Positions 1-53,449 of a DNA stretch of 64,000 nt are shown here, one piece after another (the stretch's first letter is position 1; each line of letters begins with the position of its first letter). The stretch spans positions 4,532,844 through 4,596,843 of the forward strand of contig NC_135178.1 in the NCBI RefSeq assembly GCF_041146795.1. The letters are read 5' to 3'. Origin of the DNA: Maylandia zebra. Taxonomy: Eukaryota > Chordata > Actinopteri > Cichliformes > Cichlidae. The notes under the pieces are model-generated. The model was not told the origin of the DNA, ran no database searches, and worked only from the letters and a program-made list of their open reading frames with translations. Both the position numbers and the translations under genes were made by a program.

Positions 1-663
1 TTAGTTAGAAAGCACCCACACTGCCCCTTGATCCATGAGCACTTTTGTCAGACACCAGTTCAGTTTTCATAAGGTATCCTGCCACCAGACTGCAGGTAAA
101 CTGTCTTAGAAGTAGGTGGTTCGATGACTCACTGTATGTGAATTTACATTAATGCAATGGGAGTCGGTAGCCTTGAGCAGCATTCAGAGTTCTATAAACA
201 TGACTATCATTCAGAGGATTATTGTTTCTTTCCTTTGGATTAGATGTAAGATTCTACCACCTGGTTTAGGGGAGGGAGGGAAAGGATCTGTTAATGGGTT
301 TATTCATGGTGGCAGGCAGACTCTGTGAATCAAGATGTTAACCTCTTAAACTCCAGCACAGACACTACTGGAGTTATGACTGTTCCACCCTCTAAAACTT
401 GACAAGGTGCCCCACAAAATATTCAATACACAATTCCTAGGAAGCGCAGGGAGACATGTCCTTAATCAGAGCTGACCTCATTTGTTTTGTAAGGTGGTAT
501 TGCCCAGTGTAATCTAATAATGTTGCACTGAGACACGAGTTACTCAAGGACAGGACGCATTAATACTTACTTTATGATAAAGTTTATATTTGCTACCCTT
601 TCTGTTATTACTTCATACTGTAGTCATTCTTCATTATACCCCTCAATACAAACATGCACTTAC
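1..663 (-). other. kcnv2 intron 1 (partial)
   Basis: This sequence follows the kcnv2 exon 1 donor. I find no reading frame resembling the pore/S6 exon on the minus strand, so it is read as intron continuing past the window edge. Nothing else is recognisable in it. Confidence 0.6.
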
Positions 664-1998
664 AGCTGCCCACCACCATGCATGAGGAATGCTGGTGAAG
701 TTTGTGTGTGGCATGTCGTGCTCCACGGTATAAACCATAGCAGAAAAGCTGAAAATGCCCATGGCGATGAAGAGGAAGAGGCAGCCCACTTGCTGGTAGC
801 ACTGTCGCAGGGTGAAGCCAAACGCCCGCAGACCCGTGGAGTGACGCGCCAGCTTCAAGATCCGAAAGATCCGCATCAGTCTCATGATCCTCAACACTTG
901 CCCCAGCTTTCCCACCTGCCCCACCGCCTGCATGTCAGCCTCATGCTTCACGTAATTATCCTGGCTGTCAAAGATCTCCAGAATGCACTGCAGATACTGA
1001 GGCAGGATTGCGATTAGGTCCACGGTGTTGAGCACGCTCCTGCTGAAGGAACTGAGGTCGGGTGTGGATATGAGACGCAGCAGGTATTCCATGGTGAAGA
1101 AGGTGATGCACATGGACTCCACGCACTCCCAGTATGTCTTGCCGCTGAGGTGACCTGAAGCAGTTCTGTACTGCATCTCCTGTACCGTGTTGAGGGTCAT
1201 GGCCACCAGGGAGATCAGGACAAACAAACTGGAGGCCACAGCCATCAGCTTGGCCTGCACAGATGAAAAAGGCTTCTCCATCAAATTCCAGATGGCTCGC
1301 CGCATCTGGCCCATGAACATGTCGTGGAACAGCTCCTCGTTCTCCTCTATCTCTATCTCTGCCTCCAGCTCCCTCTGGATTTTCAGCTGGTCGTTGAGCT
1401 CGTCCTGCCTCTCCTCGAAGGCGATGCGGCAGCAGCGGTGGGTGGTCTTGATCCTCACGCCCCAGTAGTTGATCTCCTCCAGAAAGTTGCGGGGACACAG
1501 CTCGTCCTTGATCCAGAGCACTCCCGTCCTGTAGAAGTTGAAGATGCTGTGAAAGACATCTGGGTCCCTGTCAAAGAAGTACTCGTTGCTGGTCACTATG
1601 TAGTCATCACACAGGTCCAGCTTCATGTTGTGGTCTGTGTACGTGGCCAGTCTCCCTATCCTGGTCTTGGGGTACTTCGCTGCCATCTTGTAGGCTATCT
1701 TGTAGGGCTTCCCTCCTACATTAATATTGATCACATAGTTCTTCTTGGAGGAGGAAATGTGCTTGGTGAAGCCGTATGGAGTACTGTCATCCTCTTCGTC
1801 CTCATACTCTGCATAAATGTCGTAGATGTCCCTGCTGAGCTCCTGCAGAGAGTTCCACGTTTTCACGCAGCTTTCCTTTGCTAGTGGGTAAACGATCTCA
1901 GAAGGTCTTCGATTAAGATCAGAATCTGTGACTTTGTAGTTGGGGAAGAGACTCTGTCTCCTGTTCGGTATGCTGTCCACCTTCCTGGTGCTCCCCAT
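664..1998 (-). CDS. kcnv2: Kv8.2-type potassium channel modulatory subunit, first coding exon (partial gene)
   Basis: This exon encodes 445 residues of a voltage-gated K+ channel subunit of the silent KCNV2 (Kv8.2) type. Such subunits join Kv2 channels at the plasma membrane, notably in photoreceptors. The acidic N-terminus (about 1-80) is followed by a T1 tetramerisation domain (about 87-190, with [11 protein letters not shown] and DEYFFDRDP-like residues), then S1-S5. The S4 arginine ladder, [18 protein letters not shown], lies near residues 368-386. The reading frame reaches the pre-pore Trp-Trp-Trp-Ala-Ala and meets a consensus donor (GTAAGT) at 663-658, the place where human KCNV2 is split. 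The pore (GYG) and S6 exon is absent and must lie left of position 1. I chose ATG 1998 (MGSTRK); the frame extends to 2019, but that codon is TTG. Family identity is sure; the a/b paralogue is not assigned. Confidence 0.93.
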
Positions 1999-3108
1999 CT
2001 TCCTGTGCTCCACCCTCAAAAACTACACAACACACAGAGCAGCCAGACTGACCAGCATTACTGGAGTCTAATACCCCCTTTACCTAAGAGTGGAGGACAC
2101 AAGCAGGATGCCTCATGGCCCTGTTAATGTTGCTGACTGAGAGGATCCGCATGCTTACAGGACATATAAATACCATTATCCTCTACTGAGCTGCCTGGTG
2201 ACATGATGTTGGCTGTGTAGAATATCTGAACAGATGACCAATAAGAATACATCTCGTTTTATATAAAATGTGTTTTGAAATCCCTTACTCAAGAAGTTAT
2301 ACCTGAAGGCTATGTGTGGGAAATACTACTGTATACCTTTGTTACTTGCATGCTGTCTGAATAAAACTACACTACTTTAATACAGGAAAAACTGTAGATT
2401 TCTAGTAGAAGTGTTGTTAAAAGTTCACTTCAAATTATTTGTGAGATGTTTTTGTATTGGTTTCCTATAGCAAAGGGAAACAAAGGAAGGCTAGTGCATA
2501 CATAAAAGAGGATAAAGGTTTTAAGCATTAGCCTACTTCCTGACTGGGAGGGGGTGGGGGGTGGGGGCGTTCCTCAGAAGTGAAGTGAATCAAGGTTGCA
2601 TGCCCTTAACATTAAAACATGTGGTTTTAATGTTAAAGCAGCAGACAAGCATCAGCAGCAACGCTGTGACACATTCACATAAGCAAATAGCAGGCTGAAA
2701 ATTTCTACTCAGAAGAAACAAGTGTCTCCAACATGACTTTGATTGCCATTGAATCCTCTTATTGGATATCAGATTATTGTCCTGCTGACCAATGACGGCA
2801 TTCTGCAAGACTATTGGCTTATTACAAGAGCCATAAAGTATGTCAACCCTTTATTTACCTTCCTGCTGCCAGCCACCACATGAGGGTTAAATCAATTAAG
2901 GACTGAAGTCATTAAATAAGTGACACTTAAATACCACTTTCAGACTTAAGATAGCCTTATTAGTATAATGTGTCATTAGAACAAGGGGTAAACTGGGATG
3001 ACGATGCAAACTGTAGGGTCACATCAAGTGGAAGAGAAAGGAAAAGAACATTTCAGAACAATGTTTTTTGTTGTTTGTTAAGCCACTTCACATCTGTGAA
3101 TCATTTAA
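1999..3108. other. kcnv2 upstream region
   Basis: This is the 5' flank of kcnv2 on the minus strand. It contains no supported gene. It includes a G-rich run near 2550-2570 and a 13-bp perfect inverted repeat (2606-2618 against 2624-2636, loop of 5). I could not place a TATA box or transcription start. Confidence 0.4.
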
Positions 3109-4219
3109 GAATCAGAATCAGAATCAGAATTGGTTTTATTGCCAAATGTTGAGCAGGTTTACAACATTAGGAAATTGCTGCGGTGCTTCAGTGCAAACAT
3201 ACTGTCATAAATTACGCTTAAATAGACATGAAAATAAAAATAAGAATAAGAATTAAAAGTGCTAAGTAGATAGGTATATACACGAGGGGCTCAAGAGTTG
3301 GGAGTTCGCCTTGTAATCAGAAGGTTGCCGGTTCGAGCCCCGGCTCGGACAGTCTCGGTCGTTGTGTCCTTGGGCAAGACACTTCACCCATTGCCTACTG
3401 GTGGTGGTCAGAGGGCCCGGTGGCGCCAGTGTCCGGCAGCCTCGCCTCTGTCAGTGCGCCCCAGGGTGGCTGTGGCTACATTGTAGCTGCCATCACCAGT
3501 GTGTGAATGTATGTGTGAATGGGTGGATGACTGGATATGTAAAGCGCTTTGGGGTCCTTAGGGACTAGTAAAGCGCTATACAAATACAGGCCATTTACCA
3601 TTTACACGAGTGCAGGTGGTGATCAGTGCCAAACATAGAATGATGCAGTGAACACAGCGTAGGGTCATGTGTTAGTGGTGGGAACAGTCATACGGTTATT
3701 GTTCATGAGTCCAACAGCAGAGGGGAAGAAACTGTTCTTATGGCGAGAGGTTCTGGTGCGAATGGACCGGAGCCTCCTGCCTGAGGGGAGCAGGTCAAAC
3801 AGACTGTGTCCAGGGTGAGAAGGGTCAGCTGAGATCCGAGCTGCACGCTGCAGTGTCCTGGAGGTGTACAGGTCCTGCAGAGATGGGAGTCTGCAGCCAA
3901 TCACCTTCTCAGCAGAGCGCACAACACGCTGCAGTCTCTGTTTGTCCCTGATAGTGGCTCCAGCGTACCACACGGTGATGGAGGAGGTGAGGATGGACTC
4001 GATGATTGCAGTGTAGAATTGCATCATCGTCCGTGTTGGCAGGTTGAATTTCTTCAGCTGCCTCAGGAAGTACATCCTCTGCTGGGCTTTCTTAATGACG
4101 GAGGTGATGGTGGGCTCCCACTTCAGGTCCTGGGTGATGGTGGTACCCAGGAAGCGGAATGAGTCCACAGAGGTGATGGGGGTGTCAGTCAGGATGATGG
4201 GGGGAGTGGGGCTGTGTGC
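3109..4219 (-). mobile_element. 5'-truncated Rex1/CR1-group LINE, 3' end copy
   Basis: The minus strand encodes the C-terminal part of a non-LTR retrotransposon polymerase. The peptide has FRFLGTTITQDLKWEP, KKAQQRMYFLRQLKK, ESILTSSITVWYAG and LLPSGRRLRSIRTRTSRH, which is typical of the CR1/L2/Rex1 group. The 3' end carries the hexamer tail (TGATTC)n at 3109-3139. The element is 5' truncated near 4219 and is interrupted by a SINE at 3287-3602. A related copy in the opposite orientation occurs at 7927-8292. The clade (Rex1 against other CR1-group) is inferred from sequence feel and is not proven. Confidence 0.8.
3287..3602 (+). mobile_element. tRNA-derived SINE inserted in the LINE
   Basis: The head is tRNA-like, with an A-box-like start and a clear B box (GGTTCGAGCCC at about 3330). 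A conserved body follows, then a tail with paired AAAGCGCT blocks, as in fish SINEs whose 3' end mimics an L2-type LINE. It is flanked by the direct repeat TACACGAG (3279-3286 and 3603-3610), a target-site duplication. A highly similar copy lies in reverse at 7152-7478. Confidence 0.85.
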
Positions 4220-4867
4220 TTAAGTATATGAAAGGCACCCAATTCGAGGGATAAACCAATAATGTGTCTACACATACGAGACAACTCAACAGAAAACTCA
4301 TTTTAAATTGTTGCAATAGCACATAATTTGTTGAGCATTGATTAACATTATCTGAAAGTCATGTCCTTGGTGCAAATTGTTGTCAGTATGTACAGTGCAG
4401 TTCAGCAGAGAGGTACAACGGTGAGTGTCAACAGGAATCTGTAAAACACAGCTCTGCCGTGATTTGAGACTGAGATCATTGTGATAGGATCATCTTGAGA
4501 AAGAAGAGAACAAAAGGCAACCAACATCCAAGGAAAAACATTTCTAATATCCTTTAAGAAGCCTGGAGAACTAGCCCTAAAGAGTACTTAAAGAAACTAT
4601 AAGAAAGCTTTCACAGGAGAGTTCAGGCTGTGTTGAAGAATAAAGGTGGCCATGCCAATTATTGACTTTCAAGCTTGCTAGAATTCCACAAACTGTTTTT
4701 GTCTTATCTGCTGTATTTTGATGTGTGTTTGCATGTTTCAATAAATCCCTGCACCTCTTTCTCATTTTCCCAGCAAAACATAAAGAAATGAGAGGCAGCT
4801 CTTGCCTTTTAAGGAGGAAATAATGTGGTTAATTTTTACTATGACCTTCACTCTGACATGGTGACAA
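4220..4867. other. spacer between LINE fragments
   Basis: This is about 650 bases of AT-rich sequence between the minus- and plus-oriented LINE pieces. I see no gene, RNA or recognisable repeat in it. Confidence 0.4.
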
Positions 4868-5213
4868 ACATTACCTACCTACAGACCGAGTCACTCCCGG
4901 ACCATCAGCACCGGCTCCCCTCAGGGTTGTGTTCTTTCTCCTCTGCTCTTCTCCCTGTATACTAACTGCTGCACCTCCACCCACCAGTCTGTCAAGCGAA
5001 TCAAGTTTGCAGATGACACCACCGTTATTGGACTCATCTCGGACGGGGATGAGTCTGCCTACAGGAGGGAGGTTGAACGTCTGGTGTCCTGGTGCAGCCA
5101 CAACAACCTGGTGCTGAATGCCCAGAAGACAGTGGAGATTATTGTGGACTTCAGGAAGCACACAGCTCCACTCCCCCCCATCATCCTGACTGACACCCCC
5201 ATCACCCCCAGTT
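4868..5213 (+). mobile_element. Rex1/CR1-group LINE fragment A (reverse transcriptase core)
   Basis: The plus strand reads TGSPQGCVLSPLLFSLYTN followed by IKFADDTTVIGLISDG and LVSWCSHNNLVLNAQKT. This is the palm of a LINE reverse transcriptase including the F-A-D-D catalytic box. The fragment stops abruptly after ILTDTPITP, where L2-like sequence begins. Its own 3' end reappears at 7927-8292, with roughly 400 bp of the coding region missing between. Confidence 0.8.
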
Positions 5214-6089
5214 AACTTCAATAATTACTTCCTCCAAACCATCAACGTGTCTTTTAGACCCCATTCCTACAAAACTGCTCAAAGAAGTCCTGCCATTAAT
5301 TAATTCTTCAATCTTAAATATGATCAACCTATCTCTAATAATCAGCTATGTACCACAGGCCTTCAAGCTGGCTGTAGTTAAACCTTTACTCAAAAAGCCA
5401 TCTCTAGACCCAGCAGTCTTAGCTAATTATAGTCCAATCTCCAACCTTCCTTTCATATCAAACATCCTTGAAAGAGTAGTTGTCAAACAGCTAACAGATC
5501 ATCTGCAGAGGAATGGTTTATTTGAAGAGTTTCAGTCAGGTTTCAGAGCTCATCACAGCACAGAAACAGCTTTAGTGAAGGTTACAAATGATCTTCTTAT
5601 GGCCTCTGACAGTGGACTCATCTCTGTGCTTGTCCTGCTAGACCTCAGCGCAGCGTTCGATACTGTCGACCATAATATCCTATTAGAGCGATTAGAACAT
5701 GCTGTAGGTATTACAGGTACTGCACTGCAGTGGTTTGTATCATATCTATCTAATAGACTCCAGTTTGTGCATGTAAATGGAGAGTCCTCTTCACACACTG
5801 AGGTTAATTATGGAGTTCCACAGGGTTCAGTGCTAGGACCAATTCTGTTTACATTATACATGCTTCCCTTAGGCAGCATCATTAGAAGACATAGCATACA
5901 TTTTCACTGCTATGCTGATGACACCCAGCTCTATCTGTCCATGGAGCCAGATAACACACACCAATGAGTTAAACTGCAGGAATGTCTTAAAGACATAAAG
6001 ACCTGGATGGCCGCTAACGTTCTGCTTCTTAATTCAGATAAAACTGAGGTTATTGTACTCGGCCCTGAAAATCTTAGAAATATGGTATC

Positions 6090-6780
6090 TGAAGGAAACG
6101 GTTTCCAAGGCCTAATCCGTGGATCGACTTCCTTCGAGACGTCTATCAGCAGAGAATGTACCTTCACCTATCAGCAGAGAATGTCCCTTAGTCTGTAACA
6201 CAGTCAAATATATTCTCAAGCAATATTCAAGCATGCCATTCAGCGTGTTAGTACGAGCTCGGGAGCAGCTTGGGAGAACAAGAAAACAGAGACTGCTTCA
6301 GATTGTCTTCCCAAATTGACTCAACTTTATTCACAAGTACAACAGTTTATATAGAGGGTAAAATTCATGAGACAGCAGATTATCAGTTTAAACCAGTACA
6401 GACCAAGATAAGGGAGTGTCTTCCTGCCCTTGGGTGAAGAAGCATCCTTTGTGTAGTGTATCAGTTCAGCTACAATTGTGATTATCTCAGCGACATATTT
6501 TCAAGGCACAAAACAAAGAGTTCTTTCATTAGTGAAATCTGAAACAAACCATTTGGCCTTCAACAGGCGTCTAAAAGATTAAGAAACTAATGTAGCTGAG
6601 GGAGTGATCTCTGTGGTATTTCAACCTTGTACCAGCCTGTGATTCTCACACATCAATTCTTGGGTCAAAGAGAAAAATAACTAAAACAAAGGGGCCTTAT
6701 TGAATGACAGAGTTTTCCTGCATAATGTCACTATAAAACAATATCCAGTAAATGCTACCATGGTACTAAAATACCTAACA
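6090..6780 (-). mobile_element. Solo LTR of an LTR retroelement
   Basis: This 691-bp block starts with TG and ends with CA. It is flanked by the 5-bp direct repeat GTATC (6085-6089 and 6781-6785), and the L2 LINE sequence resumes directly on the far side. On the minus strand a TATATAAA box (6353-6346) is followed by AATAAA (6331-6326), as in LTR promoter and polyadenylation regions, which gives the orientation. No internal coding region is present, so it is a fossil left by LTR-LTR recombination. Family (Gypsy or ERV type) is undetermined. It is younger than the L2 insertion. Confidence 0.8.
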
Positions 6781-7151
6781 GTATCTAACCAGATTCTTAC
6801 TCTGGATGGCATTACCTTGGCCTCCAGTAACGCTGTGAGGAACCTTGGAGTCATTTTTGACCCGGACATGTCCTTCAACGCACATATTAAACAAATATGT
6901 AAGACTGCGTTCTTCCATTTGCGCAACATCTCTAAAATTAGAAATATCCTGTCTCAGAGTGACGCTGAAAAACTAGTTCATGCATTTATTACTTCCAGGC
7001 TGGACTACTGTAATTCATTATTATCAGGAAGTCCAAAAAACGCACTGAAAAGCCTTCAGCTAATCCAAAATGCTGCAGCAAGAGTCCTGACAGGGACTAG
7101 AAAGAGAGAGCAGATTTCTCCTGTTTTGGCTTCCCTTCATTGGCTTCCTGT

Positions 7152-7478
7152 TAAATGGTAAATGGCCTGTATTTATATAGCGCTTTACTAGTCCCTAAGG
7201 ACCCCAAAGCGCTTTACATATCCAGTCATCCACCCATTCACGCACACATTCACACACTGGTGATGGCAGCTACATTGTAGCCACAGCCACCCTGGGGCGC
7301 ACTGACAGAGGCGAGGCTGCCGGACACTGGCGCCACCGGGCCCTCTGACCACCACCAGTAGGCAACGGGTGAAGTGTCTTGCCCAAGGACACAACGACCA
7401 AGACTGTCCAAGCCGGGGCTCGAACCGGCAACCTTCTGATTACAAGGCGAACGCCCAACTCTTGAGCCACAATCGCCC
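7152..7478 (-). mobile_element. tRNA-derived SINE inserted in the L2 LINE
   Basis: This is a reverse-oriented copy of the SINE at 3287-3602, matching along nearly its whole length. It includes the B box GGTTCGAGCCC on the minus strand and the AAAGCGCT tail at the left. It has a slightly fuller tRNA-like head than the other copy. It splits the L2 coding sequence after the peptide LHWLPVK. I see no clear target-site duplication. Confidence 0.85.
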
Positions 7479-29547: not shown

Positions 29548-32500
29548 CTAACTGAACAGCTTGATGAAGCAGCCGTGGCAGTAGGGTTTGTCGTTTTGCT
29601 CTTTAAAGGTGCCTTTGTTGAGCTGTTTCAGGCAGAAGGCACAGACAAAATGCTCCGGGTGAAACTTCTTGGACATGGCTGTGATGCAGCGCCCCGTGAT
29701 GGGCTTCTGGCAGCCGGAGCAGAGGGAGCCGCGGCGCTCGTGGTAGTGCACTTCACAGTAGGGTTGGCCATCGTGCTCAAAAAAGCTTCCATTCACAAAT
29801 GGGGTGAAGCACTCCTGCAGAAACACACACACACGTTATTATTTTAGTACTCTTTTTCTTACAAGGCATGCAAACTATTATAGAAAAGTTCCTGACTAAA
29901 GCATAACACTAACCCTGCAAACAAAACACTCGGGATGCCAAAGACAGTTCAGAGCTGAGATGTAATTTTCCAGAATGGCTCTGGCACAGCCGCCGCATTT
30001 CGGTGCAAACATGTCAAAGTAATCTTTCCTGCAGTATGCCTTTCCATCCTTTTCATGAAAACCTGAAAGTAGAACGAGACAAGAGATTATATCCACTCTA
30101 AAGTAGAGAGAAACTGCTAAGCAGTATGATTCAAAACATATACTTGTATCACTTTACCCTCAGGGCCAAAGAAAGAGCCACACTGAGCGCAGAAGAAGTG
30201 TTCGGGATGCCATGTCCTATCCAGCGCCGTCACAACTTTCTGAATGAACATTGAAGACATTTATAGGCTGACACGTCTACAGCAGAGACCACATGTGTGG
30301 AGAGCAGTGACTCACATCCAGTATGGGCCCGTTGCAGTAGTAGCACCGCGGAGAGAACAGATTGTGGTAATCCTTCTCACAGTAGGGCTGTCCTTCACGT
30401 TCAAAAAAGTTCCTGGAGCCGATTTCCTCTTGACAGTGTGTGCACACAAAGTGTTCGGGGTGCCATGTGCGGCCCATGGCGGTCACCACCTAAAAAATAA
30501 TTGACAAAAAACAGATAACCAAAGCATGATTAGAAAACATCTATTTATGTTACAGACAAAAGATTACCTTAACCGAACCATCTCACCTGTCCCACAATCG
30601 GCTTACAGCAGGCTCCGCAAACTCCTTTAGCGACTGTCTGCACGCCCAGTTTGTTGAGGTCAGACTGCAGGCTGCCAAGCATGTTGTCCAGCTTGTTGAC
30701 CTGTGTCGGGGGTCCACCGGAGACACCACCCTTCCCTTGGGCCATAATCTGAAATGGTTCAGTATGAAAATAGTTATTTACTGTTGAAATGTAACAAAAA
30801 TATTTAAGTTTAGGGTTACTTAACTTTAAAATAAGTGTGAAAAACAGAAGGAATAAAAGAGGGAGGGGTTCATGCCTGCATTGGAGGGAAGATGGGGTCA
30901 TACTCAGTTTGGCAGCCTACAGAGACCAGGACTTTGGGTGCAACTGGGGGAACCGAGTCCACTGTTGGTGGCTGGGTTGGGGTTTTTAGGACAGGAGGAG
31001 GCGGCTCTGGTTTAGGCGTAGAAGGGTTCTGAACTGGAGCCGGTGGAGGTGAGGCTTTTATGAACTGCCGAGGTGGAGCAGGAACTGGTTCGTGAATGTG
31101 GTGGGTACGTTGTGGAGGTGGTGAAGGAGGTGGAGGAGGTGGGGGTGGTATTGGGACAGGGGGGTGCTGTACAGGGAGGGGTCGCTTAGGTTCTTCTATG
31201 ACAGGGGGGCGACGAGGGGTAGGGGGAGAGGGAGGTGGCAGCACCTTCCTCACAGGGACAGGAGACTCGGGGGGAATTATGATCTGAAGAAAAGAGGAAA
31301 AACAGAAGGAAGGAGACAGGAAATGTGCAGAAGAGGGAAACAAAAAGTGAAATAATTGCGAAAGGAGAATTTGTGGAAACTGTCAAGCACACTGAAGCCA
31401 ACCTTGTCGACCTCACTGCCCGCCCCATCGGGACGATATCGCTGAGGTTTGGACGTGACGATGACACCCTCCGTCAGCCAATCATCGGACTGTTTGCGCC
31501 TCCGTTCTGAGCGGCCGATCCCAAGCTTACCCTGAAGCTCTTCTATGAGACGGTCCTGGGAAGAGTTCTTGTTTACAATGATGGGTCCCATCTTCCTGCG
31601 CAGGTGAGCCTCTCGGTACATGGGGTGCACATTGGGAGTCTCCTTAGTGCGCCTAATAACTGATTTTATCTAAGAGCAGGGAGGGAGGGAGCGAACACCT
31701 TATCATATGTCCACTCCAATTTACAAGCTCAAGCACTTACAGCAGAGCACTGAGGCAGCAGGTCAGTCACACCAGCCGTTTTCAAGTCACTGACGTGCCG
31801 GCAAAGCAGTGGTCACGAGCTCGGAGTCCCATATTAGGAACTTCATGCATGCTTTCAGCAGAAGCCACTGCTATCGATGATCTAACTCTCATCCTTCAGT
31901 TTCTCAAGCAGCCACATAAACATCAGGTCTCAGTTTGGTCCTTCACACAAATGCAGTGGTGCCATGCAGAGTGGTGGTGCTGCCAAACAGCAGGTTAGTT
32001 GTAAGAGTAGTTTCCAAGCAAAATCTATTAATTAGCTTGCTTCAACTCCTTCAGCCTCTTCCTTACAAGGCATTTTCTTCTAAATAAATACATGTAGTTT
32101 CTACATATCGATCAAAGCTTAAAAATTTAGCGTTTTTCTGCCTGGTTTATTTGCCTGGCTAAAGTAACTGGGCGCGTCTCCTCCAAGGTCTGTTTACAGG
32201 GATGAAAAGAATCGAGCTCAAGCCAATCACAGCCCTGATGATACTGAAAGCTAACAAGTCAATCATAATCGTATCTGATGTAAGGATCATAGTAGTGGTC
32301 AAAATAGCAGATAAAATATTAGATGCCATGTTTTAGTTTTTCAAAAAACATGCAAGATAAACCCTTGCAGCAGAGGCTGGGATTTAAAGGCGCATCAGTC
32401 TCATTAGCTAGCAAAACAACATTTTAAAATCAGGCAGGGCCGGCGAAGCGTACATGTCCAGACGCTGAGACTCTGTCTATAGTGGGAGTCTGAAGCAGGG

Positions 32501-35500
32501 GCAGGTCCAGGGTGACGTCAGGGGTCCCGGGGCATGATGATGGGGTCATGGACTCATCCATCCAGCTGGCCTCTGTCAGTGGGGTCATGCTGCCATCTGT
32601 ATAGAGCCTCTCAGTGTAAGGGGTCATGGTGCCATCCAGACCGTCATGTAAGGACATGGACAGCTCTTCGTCTGCCCAGTCCAGGTCTCCATTCCCATCT
32701 GTGCCTCCGTCCACTGAATCGTCTGTAAAAGTGTTGGTGAAAGTGTCTGGCTGGACGCTGCTTCTGTCCAAGGGTAGGATGAGCTCCTCGTGCACCTCCT
32801 GCATTCCTCTGCCAAGACACTCTGCATCATTCTTCAGCTGAGGTCCATCCACATTCGCCATTGTGTGATTTTGTGAAAAACTCATTGCTAGAAGCTTGTC
32901 TAGTGCCTCATCCAGGGATGGCTCTACCACAGGGGGTTGCTGTACAGTGAAGTTGGTGGTTGTATGGGTTGCAGGTGGTGTCTCCAGCAACTGTCTGTTG
33001 TGGTTATTAAAGGCCATTGGAGAAGAGACTATTAGTGGCGAGACTGGAGATGGTGAGGATGTTTTTGAAGGTGAAGACAGAGAGACAAAAACGGGGAGGG
33101 GTGAGGGGGCTGAGACCTGAGGGGTGAAGTTTTGGGTTGTAGGTAAAGACGAAGAGGAGAAACTGACATCGAGATCATAAAAACAAGGAGAACCCTTGCT
33201 TACACTCTCAGGAGCACAGGAGGATTTACCTCCAGAAGCTGAGGGTGAGACCCGTTCTACAGATGGACTTGGGGACTTGGAGGACTTGTGATCCAGGACA
33301 GTGATAACTGAGGTAAGTGAAGGGGTAGTGGTATTGGAAGGACTTGGGCTACTTCTTAGCAGGTTGGAGTTCGAGGAAGCAGACTGAGAGAGGACTAGCA
33401 GAGACTTGGTTTGAGATGATAGCATGATGGCAGAGACATCTATGACAGAGTCCAGGTCTAGCTCACTGGTTGCAGAATATGAGGATGTAGGACTGTGTGG
33501 AGAGAGATGGCTAGGGTGGGGTCTCAACATGCCACCATCTCCTCCATCCTCATCTATATGTAGCTCTAGCCCAGCAGGTAAAGAGAAGAGAGGAGAGGCA
33601 CAGGCAGACGGATGAGACAGACTCAAGGAAGGAGAAGCCATGGGGGAAATGGAAGAGGACATTGGAGTGTGGCAAGAGCTGGAAGATGCTCCTGCTGGTT
33701 CAAGCAGAGAGCCTAAAGAGCTAGGCTAGAGGAACAGAGAAGCACAAGTGAGAGAAGAAGAAGAAGAAGAAGGCAATCATGAAGAACATGACAGGAGAAG
33801 CTTGGGATTTGTTGTTTAAATAAAGCCTTTCCAATGCTCCCTCATACCTTGAAGTCAGACAAAGAGGCCATCAACTCATCGAGCTCTCTGGTGGCACAGG
33901 AAGCTGAAATTCTGGCCTGCTGTTGAGAGGATGTGTCCAAGTCACTGTGACGAGTGGGGGGGCTGGAAAACACAAGTCATTGTGATTATTAAATCCATGC
34001 AAACACTGACTTTTGTTTTTAATAGTGAAGCTCAAAATTGTGTAAGTTGATGATTTCTAATTATCAAAGCAAAACAGGTGCTGTGTTGCTCCACAATGTC
34101 TCAGTCTCCCCACGGCAGCTGTCACACACAAAGCAATACAGCTACCATTTAATGCTGCTGTAAACTTACTTAATCTTTTACTGCGCATGGAAAATGCATG
34201 TATTTGTTAAGAAGCTGTAAATGCTAATACACATTCAGAAACCTCAGATGTTTCCATTTGCTCATACCAGACCCAATATCAACACTCTCACATACATTTT
34301 AAGTATATATACCTCCCTGTGTGGAACTTTTCTGGAATCCTTTTCAATAAGGTCGCATGAGGGGAGAAATTGCACACAAAAAAAGAGCCCAACATCTGCA
34401 AATATTTTTTCTACTCTTAAGTCCTACACAATGACAAAATGACATTTTGTCATTGTGTAGGACATTTTAGTTTAGCGCATTTTAGTTCTCTCCCTCAAAT
34501 ATCTTGAGACAGTGGATGAACTGAAGGGGCTACACAAAGACTCTGTATCAGATATATTAGGATTAATTTAATCTGCAAATCATGCAAAGCTATTCTAGTA
34601 GAGTCTAGGGATAAAAATACAGAACTGCAAATGAACACACAGGTCTACTCTGCCAGGTCTCAGAAACTTTCTGCTGAAGAATATAAAGACCGTTTTTAGT
34701 GTCCAACTCTGAACTAGTATAGTGAATCAAACACAAAACAAAAAGGAACAAAGTCTGCAACACTGATTAGAGGGGACTTTAATGCCAAGTTAGACCCCAG
34801 CTGTAGTGGAGATACCTGGGTGAAGGCACCGAGCCTTCCAGCTCATCCAGCAGACTTTCCACAGTAGGTCGGGCGTCCTCCATCCTCCCATTCCTCTTTG
34901 GTTTCTCCTGAGGTGGTGGGCTTACCAAGATGTCAGGTGTGCCGCCGTTCTCGTAGTGAGTGATGCTGCAGGATGGCAAGGGAGGAGCTGCCTCCTCTGT
35001 GGACACATAACATTGAAACTAATGATGCTCAATCCCATTAGAACCGATAAATCTGAAGCCTTTGTCTCTACCTGTAGTGGGAAATGAAGGGGAGCTCTGT
35101 TGCACAGCATTAAGTTCCAGCAGAAGCCTGTCAAGCTCTGACAGATTACTGCCCAACGCAGAAGTCATGGCTGTTGTAGAGGAATCTGATGTCTTCTGTT
35201 TGTTTGGGAAACTAAAGAGACAGAGATAACTTACCGAAAGAAACTAAAAGTTAAAGAAAATGCCAGATGACGCAATCAGGTTTATATACACAACATCCTG
35301 AGTGTGTGGAAGTTACCTGTAAACGTGGTCCTCTTCAATGTGAGATAATGGAGAACTGCTACTGTCCCTTGACCATGAGCTCTTCTGTGCCGAACCCAGT
35401 GACTGCAGAGAATACACCAACCAGTAACTGCTGAGGTTTTTTTTTAATTAATGTAACATTTACTGTTTCTCATTTGAAGAGTCTGATATACTAAGTGAGA

Positions 35501-47500: not shown

Positions 47501-49049
47501 CATTTCACTGCTGGTCTACTTTCAGAGATCAGAAGATTCCTACAGATATTTGACTGGTGAAACAAGTTTTTCACAAGTACTGAATTAGTAATGCAAATAT
47601 AGAAACCTGCCAGCTGCTAAAAGTGTAACATAATTAGAAACTCAGACGTTGCGTGTCAAAGGTTAAAAGTGGGGCCAAAGTAGAACAAGAAAAAAAAAAA
47701 AGATGACGCTGGTAACGTCAGGAGAACTGGCGTTGATAAAAGGCAGATAAAACCTGTAGTACCGATGAAAGGATTCATAAAACTGATTAAATTATTAAAA
47801 GAAATAAAATTAACCAGTTAAAGTCATCCACAAGCTATCTGATGACATCACTGTTTTTTCATGACTTGTGATGATCAAATTAGTAATACAAGGGGATGCC
47901 ACACCAGTCCAGAAATAACAGTTATATTAACAGACACTGAAAAAAGCCTCAGCTACAAGTTACAGTCTCTATTAAGAGACAGTGTCTCCCAACAAAAAAC
48001 AAAAACAGAAAATGCACAAAGAGTCATGACAGACATGTGAAGCAGCTAAGAGAAAATGACATTCGGCCATTAACAAACATGTTGTATATTTTCCTGTGCA
48101 AAATTGTCAGGGATACATCAAGATATCGGCCTAATGGTAGAGGCCAGTTTGATCTGGTGTGTGACAAATGTTTAAAGACAGTTTAAAGTCTCCATCAGCA
48201 CAGAGTTATTTCTTATGATGAAGGTTTGTTTGCTAGGTAAATAAACACATGTTTGAATATGAGCTCATTATCAGTATCAGCACAGAATTTCCCAATCAGG
48301 AGATCCCTAAAGATGTACTGATTGTCCAACTCTTACAGCATTTCTCAACTTGCACATGTCTAATCAAACAGTTTTCAGACCTGATCTTTCCGCTTCCTAT
48401 ACCTCAGTTTTTAGTTTTTGATATAAAACGATAAAGTGTACCAGTATACCAAGTAATTATACATCCCTGCAAGTTAAGTTTGTCACACTGGAGGATCACT
48501 AGAAGTCAGCCAGGCCAGGGCTGAGCACACATTGTACAGGGAGGCCTGTTGACTCTACCACTTCAAAGCTGGAATGAGTAGCCTTGGGGCAAAAGTTGAG
48601 AAGGTAATGTTGAGGCTTAATGTCAAAATGTCATTAAATAACTCCTCCCTCCGGCACACATACTGATAAAAAAGACCTTGATTTAGACGAGCAGGGCGGC
48701 GTGGTATTGCCAGAGACGTTCGCTTCACCTCGGAGAGGGAGAGTTAAAAAGTAGGTAGAGTTAAAGGCTAGCGATGTCCAGCTGCTAACCTACTAGGCTG
48801 CTTATTTTACAACAGTGTGAGGAGAAAGTCAAGTCGGTACAACATTCACTCTTTCGCTCGTCACTGTAACATTTCTGTCAGGTATTCGCAAGTTTCCCTG
48901 GATAAGAAAGCTACATTGGACAAACAGCCAGCATAAAATCTCTTCGTAACGTTGACTACCCCTCCACCCTGCTATCCGCTCCAAACTGGGGGCAGAAAAC
49001 CCACATATGGGGAAAAAAAAAAACCTCATAACTTACCTAAATCGTCCAT
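29548..49049 (-). CDS. pxn: Paxillin, focal-adhesion LIM scaffold
   Basis: The canonical form joins twelve... listed exons in phase to 525 aa: 49037-49049, 35529-35737, 35317-35402, 35072-35211, 34816-34996, 33848-33962, 30587-30748, 30316-30489, 30158-30239, 29914-30062 and 29548-29814 (eleven exons). Paxillin docks FAK, vinculin and Src/Crk at focal adhesions. LD1 is at residues 1-13 ([13 protein letters not shown]), LD2 about 125-140, LD3 about 192-203, LD4 about 234-248 and LD5 about 267-280. Four LIM zinc domains follow to the end, where the family usually closes with K-L-F-C/S. The Src/FAK-type tyrosines sit at Y31 (ETPYSIP) and Y102 (HVYSFP). The first coding exon is only 13 nt and is separated by a 13.3-kb intron. 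Human alpha-paxillin has 557 aa. The a/b paralogue is not assigned. Confidence 0.95.
30876..31283 (-). CDS. pxn: pxn cassette exon 3, proline-rich (136 codons)
   Basis: A 408-nt phase-0 exon follows a TTCTTCAG acceptor and encodes a strongly proline-rich segment. It starts [20 protein letters not shown] and ends [17 protein letters not shown]. The frame closes at the natural junction CAG|GCATGA, so a GC-AG intron must be assumed to link it to the LD5 exon at 30748. Runs of five or more prolines could bind SH3, WW or profilin-type partners (inference). Confidence 0.65.
31403..31669 (-). CDS. pxn: pxn cassette exon 2 (89 codons)
   Basis: A 267-nt phase-0 exon lies between a CTCTTAG acceptor and a weak AAG|GTTGGC donor. 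It encodes a basic, non-repetitive segment with [40 protein letters not shown] and [20 protein letters not shown]. The high complexity and the intact frame speak for real coding sequence. It sits between the large Ser-rich cassette and the proline-rich cassette, and can be skipped without a frame change. Confidence 0.75.
32454..33725 (-). CDS. pxn: pxn long cassette exon 1 (424 codons)
   Basis: An open frame of 1,272 nt begins in phase 0 after a CTCTAG acceptor (exon starts CCTAGC at 33725). It can end in phase 0 at CAT|GTACGC (32454/32453); if unspliced it runs seven more codons to a TGA at 32430. It is very Ser/Thr/Pro-rich and acidic. It contains an LD-like stretch ([14 protein letters not shown], about residues 267-280) and repeated M-T-P motifs near its end. 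Joining it to the next cassette would read SGH-IKSVIRR in frame. It is inferred to be an alternatively used exon of a long paxillin; the weak donor leaves open a terminal-exon reading. Confidence 0.75.
34421..34463. repeat. perfect 21-bp palindrome with 1-nt loop
   Basis: Arms 34421-34441 and 34443-34463 are exact reverse complements around a single A. It lies in the pxn intron between the LD3 and LD4 exons, next to a copy of the dispersed repeat at 34500-34665. Confidence 0.95.
34500..34665. repeat. dispersed repeat family, copy 2 of 3
   Basis: It contains GCAAATCATGCAAAGC, TATTCTAGTAGAGTC and the AAAATACAG...TGCAAATGA block shared with the copies near 27560 and 54530. It lies in a pxn intron. 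Confidence 0.5.
44240..44400 (-). mobile_element. L2-like LINE 3'-end fragment
   Basis: The sequence CAGCACCAAATCACAACAAC followed by GACGACCCCCTATGAGCAAG is the reverse complement of the common teleost L2/Maui 3' tail. Only the tail is present, which is normal 5' truncation. Confidence 0.7.
45410..45703 (+). mobile_element. L2-like LINE 3'-end fragment
   Basis: GCTTGCTCATAGGGAGTCAT, then ACAATATAAAGCTCC and GTAAATAAAGTAAAACTGAA, follow the L2/Maui 3' tail in plus orientation. The fragment is strongly 5' truncated. It carries the tail that the L2 copy at 5214-7926 lacks. Confidence 0.7.
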
Positions 49050-49829: not shown

Positions 49830-50963
49830 TCAAAAGTCTACTGCTTTCAGCTTTCTCTCCTCCTCCTCTGTAAGTGGCTGCTGGGAGAGGATTTTATCAT
49901 GGAAGCGGTGATGTTTGCCTATTCCCAGCTTTGGCAGACCTCGGTTCAGCCCCTCCAACAGCACACATGCCTTACACAGTTTCTGACTGGAGATGTAGCC
50001 ACACCGGCTGCAGGTTCCCTGGACAGGCATCTTTACCCCCTCGCGCACAGACAGGTTCTCACCGGAGTGAATAACGTCCATGATCGAACTGGGCCTCACA
50101 CTCTCCAGATCCTTTAAATAGGTTCTTGCATAGCCACGGTAAGCATTAGGAGAGTAGATACACTCAGTAGAAAAGTAGTCTAATTTCTTGAAGTAAGCAT
50201 ACAGAACAATCTCTTTTTCATAAGCGTATTTAAGGGGCTTGCAGCGTGGCACGACCCCTTCGTTCTCGCTGTCCGTTGAGATGGTGGTGCAGCGGCGCAG
50301 CCGAGCTATGTCCCCTCGCAAGACGTTCATCAAAACAGTTTCTGCCACATCATCAGCATTGTGACCTGTGCAGAGGGGAAAAAAAGAAAACAAAACAGAG
50401 ACATCTCGTTATTCAAAACAACACATTAAAGCTAACACTGCTCACATTTTCAGTCATTTGAATCTACCTGTACATATCTTGTCCACTTTAAGCATGATGG
50501 CTCCTCTGTCCAACGCCTGCCTCCTGAACACGCCACAGAAGGTGCAGTTATTTTTCAGCCCAACCTGCTTCACTATAGCATCCATTGTCCAGCCATACAG
50601 CTCCTCATAGGACACAATCTTCAGAGGCAGCTCATACTGTTGCTGGTTCCTCTTCACAGTCTCCAAGGAGTCATCTCGATAACCCGTGATTCCCTCATCC
50701 ACCGAGAGAAGCATGAGCTCAAGGCCGTAGCTGTATCGCTCATTCAGGACCTTCATTACATGTGCAAGCACAGTGGAATCTTTTCCCCCGGAGGCAGCGA
50801 TTCCCACAGACTCCCCGGTTTTGAACAGCTTTGCTGACACTATGGTCTGATGAATCTCCTCTTCAAAGGCCCAGAAGAAGCACTCCTTACACAGAGAGTG
50901 GCCGGTTTTTGGACGTTTAAGCACGGCACGCTTTTCAGAGCAGCTGCTACACTGGACAGGCAT
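49830..50963 (-). CDS. ctu1: Cytoplasmic tRNA 2-thiolation protein 1
   Basis: Two coding exons, 50468-50963 and 49830-50365, join in phase 1 (ACA-G|GT-CAC) to 343 aa (human 348 aa). CTU1 with CTU2 and the URM1 sulfur carrier thiolates the wobble uridine U34 of tRNA-Lys, -Glu and -Gln in the cytosol. The N-terminal zinc ribbon has C5-C8 and C25-C28. The ATP pyrophosphatase P-loop SGGKDS is at residues 58-63. The catalytic-type CTFC lies in [18 protein letters not shown] (about residue 143), [13 protein letters not shown] follows at the exon join, and a C-terminal CSRCGY...CKAC zinc site is present. An acceptor just upstream of the ATG (CCAACAG|TCAAG) shows a spliced 5' UTR. Confidence 0.96.
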
Positions 50964-51494
50964 CTTGACTGTTGGAAAGGTGGTTTATTAAAAGAACAAT
51001 AATGTCCAAAATTAATATAACAAATACTTTAAATATTTCATGTCAAAGCCATACAAATCTACAAAGCTCAACTTCTTCGTTGCTGATCTCCTTAAAGTGA
51101 TCTTTATCATGTTCGTTTTGTAACCTGAAAATCCCAATTTAAAGTTTGGCTTTAGTCTAATGGTCTAGTAAGTGCTTTAAAAACACTTTTACAGCTCCTT
51201 ACATAGCCAGGTAGGTGAGATGTCAGCCCTGAAGAATAAGAAACTTTACTTCATACGCTGGATTCTTACTACATTAGCTTCATTTTTATCGACATAAAAG
51301 TCGATAAAACACCCCGTTACTTCAATCAAAGAAATAAGCGGATAACTTAGTCACAACTTCAGTCATATTAGTGGATTATCAGGCTATATTTTCAAGACAT
51401 GCCACATTTAAGAGTAGTACAACACATACAAAACCTAAACGTGGTCTAACATTAGCTAGCTAAGCTAAGCTAACTCGTGAGCTGTACCATTTTC

Positions 51495-52013: not shown

Positions 52014-53189
52014 TTAGTTGACGGGATGAAAGGCACCCCTCTGATGCCACTGCATGTCTCTGATGCGCCGGACTGATTGGATCTGAGGAATCTGGGCTCC
52101 GAAATCAGTGGTGTCCTTGTACTCCCCCTTCTCAAACAGGTACTGATAGCCTCTGTAGCCTGGATACTGGTAGCCCACCCAGCTGGTGCACCACAAGCAA
52201 AGAGAGGGGAAACAAATGTTAGCCAATTAGAGGTCAAAGGGCATGTGGCAGCTATTTCTATGATATACAGCACCTGCTGAAAGGATGGACTCACGTGCCA
52301 CTCTGGACCCGAACAGAAGAGACCTTCTCCTGGTAGCCGTGTGCGTGAAAGCTGGGGACATCATCATCTATGATTTCTATCTTCTTCCCTGCAAAGCTGG
52401 GGTTTTCGTAAAGGACAATCTTGTGCTCCTGGCTGTCCTGATGAATCAGAAGAAAAAAAAAATCAAGCCAAGGGTGAGATGTGAAGCAGCTGATTATGGG
52501 ATGGAGGTATAAATTTGTAAATCTCTCTTACCACTTTAATGGGGCGGAATGCAACAATGGTGTCACTACGCCTGCTGTTGGTCCAGGAATCCCAGCGAGG
52601 ATACTCGCCCTTCTCAAACACATACTGCTCCCCCTTACAGTTGGCCTGCTCATATCCCACCCATCTGAGAAGACAGAAAACAACAACAACAACCACAACA
52701 ACAAATGGGGCTGTGATTGATGCAGGGGCTCAGCTGGAAAGATGGTTGGTTGTCTGCTTATCACACATTAAATTTGATTGCTTTTCTCTATTCCATTCCC
52801 TCTTTTTTTTGGTCATTTGCTAGTTTTCTCTGTCTGTCTCTGACCCACACTCACGGTCCACACAGCACCAGTATGGAGCCCACTTTCTCCACGCCTGCTT
52901 CCTGAAGGTTGTTACAGGGACCAGTCAGCTCATGGCAGCGTCCCTGGAAGTTTTCCTGCTCATAGATAACCAGCTGGAAAAGAGGAAAAATTTCTTCTTC
53001 TTTTTTAGCTCTTGAAAGGAGTTGTGTTTTTTTGGAAGATAAACAATTGCAAATACGGAGTGCACAGATTTCATGTGAACTTATGTGAACTGGTCTCGCT
53101 GCCAGTGTGCGCCTGTCCTCCCTCACCTTAAACGCACTGGTGCCTGGCTGCTGCTGCTTGGATGCAGGACTCTGGTGGTCTGTGGCCAT
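52014..53189 (-). CDS. crybb2: Beta-crystallin B2
   Basis: Five coding exons (53127-53189, 52855-52973, 52532-52664, 52295-52437, 52014-52182) join to 208 aa (human 205 aa). BetaB2 is a soluble structural protein of the eye lens that forms beta-crystallin oligomers. Each of exons 2-5 encodes one Greek-key motif: [54 protein letters not shown] with [20 protein letters not shown], and [20 protein letters not shown]. It ends with [19 protein letters not shown], nearly the same as mammals. The short N-terminal arm ([14 protein letters not shown]) has its own exon, as in the family. An acceptor just before the ATG shows a non-coding first exon. Confidence 0.97.
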
Positions 53190-53449
53190 ATTGAATGGAT
53201 AAGGATGATGCTGAAAAGAAACAGGTAAAAGTATAATTCTGAATAATTTTGAGGTATTTCTGTAATTTTTTTTTTTTGGTAGCTTTTTCTAAAATCTGAG
53301 AAGCTGTTGATTGATTCTGTTTGCTGTTATTGTTCTAAGTTTCTAAGATTTAACCTAAATTACAGTGGCAAAAAGAAGACAAATACTGATAAATATATAT
53401 ATTAAAATTTTTTTTATAAAATACAGCGTGACGGACATGATCCCCTTAC

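Follow-up and report, generated by a model that had tools for sequence, protein, structure and literature searches.

The window analysed in this work, a 64,000-nt stretch of the Maylandia zebra genome, carries on its minus strand a paxillin gene whose exons join in frame into a canonical protein of 525 amino acids (aa), ending at position 29548. In cell-matrix adhesions paxillin acts as a central adaptor. Between the exons for its fourth and fifth LD motifs (LD4 and LD5) lie three further open segments through which, judged from the sequence, a giant form of the protein is very probably made. The first coding exon (49037..49049) consists of ATGGACGATTTAG followed by a gtaagt donor and encodes MDDL; this pattern has one match in the window against none in 100 shuffles, and its frame fits. 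LD1 to LD3 are carried by exons 2 to 5 (35737-35529, 35402-35317, 35211-35072 and 34996-34816), assembled in frame. The LD4 exon (33848..33962), which ends in SLSDFK, has the donor AAG followed by gtatga, and the LD5 exon (30587..30748) has the acceptor TTTCAG followed by ATTATG, both junctions being in phase 0. The LIM exons that run to the stop codon (30489-30316, 30239-30158, 30062-29914 and 29814-29548) complete the in-frame assembly. A Pfam scan of the canonical gene covered five exons (exon 2, LD4, LD5, first LIM and last LIM) and placed PF03535 on exon 2 with an expectation value (E) of 2.7e-34 and on the LD4 exon with E 2.1e-17 (profile positions 235-269 of 269), while the LD5 exon matched no family at E up to 0.1. 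The LIM domain PF00412 was present in the first and last LIM exons, the two of that group that were scanned, and the best PDB match of the last was paxillin (6u4m). The 525-aa protein contains five LD matches at five of five key positions, and the gene has the hallmarks of paxillin, with LD1 to LD5 in the N-terminal part and four LIM exons in frame at the C-terminus.

The LD4–LD5 interval is 3099 nt long and holds all three additional segments, here called cassette exons. Cassette exon 1 (33725-32454, minus strand; 1272 nt, 424 codons) is bordered by CTCTAG/CCTAGC and GGACAT/gtacgc, cassette exon 2 (31669-31403, minus strand; 267 nt, 89 codons) by TCTTAG/ATAAAA and GACAAG/gttggc, and cassette exon 3 (31283-30876, minus strand; 408 nt, 136 codons) by CTTCAG/ATCATA and ATGCAG/gcatga. 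Each is therefore preceded by AG, and GT, GT and GC follow exons 1, 2 and 3 respectively. An earlier note on this DNA had described segments of 424, 89 and 136 codons between LD4 and LD5 with phase 0 at both ends; all of the coordinates hold, and the phases are borne out by in-frame assembly. Its arithmetic was also reproduced, in that retention of all three cassettes adds 649 residues and gives a protein of 1174 aa, more than double the canonical length. Because each cassette and the direct LD4–LD5 junction are in phase 0, any combination of cassettes can be skipped without a frameshift. The longest open stretch in the interval is 431 codons, whereas in 500 dinucleotide shuffles it averaged 121 and never exceeded 227. 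No Pfam family matched the cassette exons at E up to 10. Sequence searches of the PDB returned a single chance-level match for cassette exon 2 (E 1.3) and none for the tail of cassette exon 3 at E up to 10. Among bacterial, archaeal and viral contigs, 19 + 26 pattern matches to cassette exon 2 were obtained and none was confirmed by tblastn, an absence that is expected for a vertebrate gene.

Relatives of the cassettes were sought in the window's own genome (962 Mb, 63 contigs), in a search that scores the best candidates only. At E up to 0.001, cassette exon 1 matched itself and one place on contig C5, the latter match being limited to residues 374-423 with 64% identity, and cassette exon 2 likewise matched itself and the C5 place, at 81% identity. 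Whole cassette exon 3 matched itself alone at E up to 0.001; its last 25 aa have just two places in the genome at E up to 10, itself and C5, with 76% identity. On C5 the match lies in a second paxillin gene (surrounding DNA designated L003), in which LD1 to LD5 and LIM1 exons occur in order. Between its LD4 and LD5 exons lie counterparts of cassette exon 1 (L003:4205-5419, 405 codons), cassette exon 2 (L003:6327-6596, 90 codons) and cassette exon 3 (L003:6843-7205, 121 codons), all open, in phase 0 and with AG acceptors, the donors being GT, GT and GC. They total 616 codons, and their order, place and phase are the same as in the window gene. The GC donor of cassette exon 3 sits behind the same codon in both copies (...PPMQ and ...PPIQ). 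The two genes are presumably the pair of paxillin duplicates specific to teleosts, pxna and pxnb.

Eight exons (five canonical, three cassettes) were compared globally between the two genes, with identity counted over aligned pairs only. The canonical exons were 60% (exon 2), 78% (exon 4), 76% (LD4), 75% (LD5) and 93% (LIM1) identical, and cassette exons 1, 2 and 3 were 42%, 81% and 70% identical. Synonymous differences are at or near saturation, with a proportion of differing synonymous sites (pS) of 0.61 to 0.85 over the eight exons; synonymous divergence (dS) came to 1.3 to 1.9 in three canonical exons and exceeded the measurable range in the two remaining canonical exons and all three cassettes. 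For cassette exon 2 the nonsynonymous divergence (dN) was 0.18 with dS saturated, and with dS in this state the dN/dS ratio has no meaning for the three cassettes. The identities of cassette exons 2 and 3 nevertheless fall within the canonical range of 60 to 93%, which, together with the near-saturation of synonymous differences, argues that selection acts on the protein. By this comparison, cassette exon 2 is the best conserved of the three and is constrained like the LD4 and LD5 exons, whereas cassette exon 1 is not. Within cassette exon 1, conserved islands include an LDEALDKLL/LDDTLEKLL stretch and the last 50 residues (64%). In cassette exon 3 the head IIIPPESP and the tail (30926-30876) are kept in both copies and the proline-rich middle drifts.

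That the cassettes are kept in frame, order and phase in a diverged paralog indicates that they are real coding sequence and that they predate the divergence of the two genes, and the interpretation of the segments as in-frame paxillin exons in the earlier note is thereby supported. The same note would have abandoned this interpretation had the frames been interrupted in related fish; in the C5 paralog, the sole comparison gene and one from the same genome, they are open. On the present evidence we hold it highly probable that the three segments are genuine coding exons, included wholly or partly between LD4 and LD5, and that a giant paxillin, reaching 1174 aa with all three, exists beside the 525-aa form. 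Two genes near synonymous saturation that both retain at least 600 extra codons point to a giant form that has been selected for a long time.

The splice signals bear on how inclusion may be controlled. When donors were scored by U1 pairing, that of cassette exon 1 was the weakest of 13 in the window gene (-0.5 kcal/mol) and the GC donor of cassette exon 3 the second weakest (-4.5). TCTT words number six before the cassette exon 1 acceptor in the window and seven in the paralog, the highest counts of the introns examined in each copy (up to 150 nt), and such abundance upstream is expected of a PTBP-repressed exon. The intron separating cassette exon 1 from cassette exon 2 (31670..32453, minus strand; 784 nt) contains one AATAAA, at 32151, and three copies of TGCATG, which we take to be an RBFOX-type word and which averages about 0.5 per kb on the plus strand of the window. 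Tissue-regulated inclusion of the cassettes may be inferred because phase 0 holds throughout, the window exon 1 donor is weak, the GC donor is present in both copies and the TCTT tract precedes exon 1.

Several observations weigh against the reading of the segments as conserved, regulated cassettes. Conservation of cassette exon 1 is weak, its 42% global identity becoming 29% in an unmasked local alignment (431 columns; 33% with MAFFT), below every canonical exon compared, and the comparison involves a single gene from the same genome. The claim of weak donors in the earlier note stands for cassette exon 1 and the GC donor of cassette exon 3 but fails for cassette exon 2, whose donor (-5.4) is close to those of LIM1 (-5.0), LIM3 (-5.6) and LD4 (-5.7). 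Nor does it extend to the paralog, where the weakest of nine donors are LIM1 (-1.2) and LD4 (-1.8), with the cassettes at -4.2, -6.2 and -4.5. TGCATG occurs three times in the window intron between cassettes 1 and 2 and once in that of the paralog, and here the regulation argument is thin. The completeness of the C5 gene is a further point, as exons for LIM2 to LIM4 were not found in 110 kb downstream; genome-wide, a search with LIM4 alone gave no close copy beyond genes on contigs C8 and C22. A run of 5000 N lies at C5:16225424-16230423, a few kb downstream of the C5 LIM1 exon. A 4.8-kb minisatellite (L004:2588-7424; 21-bp unit, about 235 copies) runs into this gap. The missing exons likely escaped detection because of the gap and the minisatellite that precedes it; a truncated C5 gene is the less likely alternative, and its exons through LIM1 are open and constrained.

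Other accounts of the three segments were weighed. That they are fortuitous open stretches within an intron would draw on the tendency of Ser- and Pro-rich low-complexity sequence to be poor in stops, but the 431 codons stand against at most 227 in 500 shuffles and the paralog keeps frame and borders, with exon 2 at 81%; the idea is refuted in substance and its probability is negligible. Cassette exon 1 could alternatively act as a last exon, in which read-through of its donor and intronic polyadenylation would produce an LD1–LD4 paxillin without LIM domains. An in-frame stop does follow soon after this donor in both copies (after VRFAGPA at 32430-32453 in the window and after VGGSA at L003:5420-5437 in the paralog), and the weakness of the window donor and the AATAAA at 32151, about 280 nt beyond the stop, are consistent with such a terminus. 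However, cassette exons 2 and 3 are likewise conserved in frame and phase, the paralog has no AATAAA or ATTAAA for more than 650 nt past its stop (the first is at L003:6091), and by our own arithmetic a stop within nine codons has a chance of about 1/3. We consider a terminal role for this exon improbable.

An equally small likelihood is assigned to the exons being constitutive, with the giant form as the usual product of the gene. Such an arrangement would suit exons that are open and conserved in both copies and whose AG acceptors have pyrimidine tracts, but phase 0 throughout allows skipping, and in the window gene no other donors are as weak as those of cassette exons 1 and 3. The short form, moreover, is the well-known paxillin of roughly 60 kDa, and nearly all studies concern that form. 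Its isoforms are described in PMC5316197.

The distribution of the insert in the paxillin family was also considered. The LIM4 domains of the C8 and C22 genes are 71% and 62% identical to that of paxillin, and from these values we take the two genes to be Hic-5-like and leupaxin-like, respectively. In 20 kb at each of them no match to cassette exon 1 or 2 was found at E up to 0.1, and cassette exon 3 gave short proline matches alone (E 0.006 to 0.07). Judged by these matches, the insert is specific to paxillin within this genome.

The description of the modules in the earlier note as Ser-rich, basic and poly-Pro was right. Cassette exon 1 is Ser/Thr/Pro-rich and acidic, with 20% Ser and 26 SP/TP sites (28 in the paralog); it includes a degenerate stretch resembling an LD motif, and its C-terminal block is conserved. 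Cassette exon 2 has a net charge of +8 (paralog +7), and cassette exon 3 is 39% Pro (paralog 52%) with 23 PxxP motifs (paralog 33). The conserved tail of cassette exon 3 contains VSVGCQTE (30903..30926, minus strand), a predicted site for the dynein light chain LC8. VSRGTQTE is a phage-selected ligand of LC8/DYNLL in which Val at position -5 raises affinity twentyfold (PMC3078936), and the paxillin peptide agrees with it at six of eight residues in both copies (Val-5, Ser-4, Gly-2, Gln0, Thr+1 and Glu+2). A match of this quality was reached by 2 of 2000 shuffles of the 649-aa insert, and the best in the 525-aa protein was four of eight. The LC8 consensus has Asp or Ser at -4, Lys at -3, any residue at -2, Thr, Val or Ile at -1, Gln at 0, Thr or Val at +1 and Asp or Glu at +2, usually in a disordered region (PMC3078936). 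The paxillin site shares Ser-4, Gln0, Thr+1, Glu+2 and also Val-5, and lies in a Pro-rich low-complexity context, but differs in having Cys at -1 rather than Thr, Val or Ile and Val at -3 rather than Arg or Lys. Many peptides with the LC8 anchor fail to bind (PMC6607443).

LD motifs, which form amphipathic helices, comprise class I, LDXLLXXL, and an inverse class II (PMC7703752). LD-like stretches in cassette exons 1 and 2 match four of five key positions in both copies, that in exon 1 of the paralog being LDDTLEKLLSTD. The window insert holds five such matches, at three places, compared with a mean of 0.78 in 1000 shuffles, of which 54.5% hold at least one; for cassette exon 2 alone, 6.6% of 2000 shuffles contain a four-of-five match. 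The five true LD motifs of paxillin reach five of five, which no stretch of the insert does, and by hydrophobic moment even the true LD motifs did not stand out from other stretches. The cassette stretches are therefore a suggestive lead as candidate additional LD motifs.

The insert breaks no LD or LIM motif. In the proposed mechanism it would spare both LD1–LD4, to which FAK, vinculin and GIT1 dock, and the LIM domains, and set them apart by about 650 mostly low-complexity residues. These residues carry many SP/TP sites (exon 1), a conserved basic module (exon 2) and SH3-type proline ligands with the predicted LC8 site (exon 3), so that the giant form may be a longer scaffold with multivalent binding, and LC8 may dimerise it. 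The closeness of VSVGCQTE to the LC8 ligand, in both copies, suggests an LC8-bridged scaffold. The fuller proposal, that giant paxillin is a distinct adhesion scaffold in which LC8 recruited by VSVGCQTE dimerises two molecules, acting with the basic module and LD-like helices, is tentative and in our estimate rather doubtful. If true, LC8-dimerised giant paxillin would act in muscle or neural adhesions as a bivalent hub of long reach, one that ordinary paxillin cannot form. Precise peptides to test emerge in any case, namely the LC8 site and two LD-like stretches.

Mammalian paxillin offers a precedent by position. Its beta and gamma inserts presumably fall at the same LD4–LD5 junction. They are 34 and 48 aa long and lie downstream of LD4 (PMC5316197), and as spliced in-phase inserts they resemble the arrangement in the window gene but are far shorter than the 649 aa seen here, the likeness drawn being one of position. 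Isoforms alpha to delta have been published, and GenBank predictions add 26 or more splice variants, with extra exons of unknown role (PMC5316197). No study of the function of a giant paxillin was found in the open-licence PubMed Central (PMC) literature, among the matches listed, and peptide strings from the cassette exons retrieved no paper there. For human PXN, databases hold entries longer than 1000 aa (UniProt A0A1B0GTU4, transcript NM_001385981). A proteomics table names A0A1B0GTU4 as paxillin without giving a length (PMC11283412). These long human entries likely carry the same exons, a putative correspondence. The giant form is thus probably already annotated while functionally untouched in the open-licence PMC literature surveyed. 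New here would be the evidence for long-kept selection on the insert and the prediction of LC8 as a specific partner. Work with short-form constructs may overlook functions specific to certain tissues.

Elsewhere in the window, the minus strand carries at 49830-50984 two frames with ATP_bind_3 and zn-ribbon_14 matches, which we take to be CTU1, of tRNA 2-thiolation. About 780 bases separate their end from the first coding exon of paxillin, which follows downstream on that strand. A voltage-gated potassium channel frame of 459 codons (643-2022, minus strand; BTB_2 and Ion_trans) is presumably KCNV2-like. A match to the reverse transcriptase family RVT_1 lies at 5194-5967 on the plus strand and one to ALKBH8_N at 3665-4219 on the minus strand, and neighbouring frames within 3665-7161 resemble, by eye, fragments of long interspersed nuclear elements (LINE). 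A beta/gamma crystallin exon (PF00030) occupies 52851-53288 on the minus strand.

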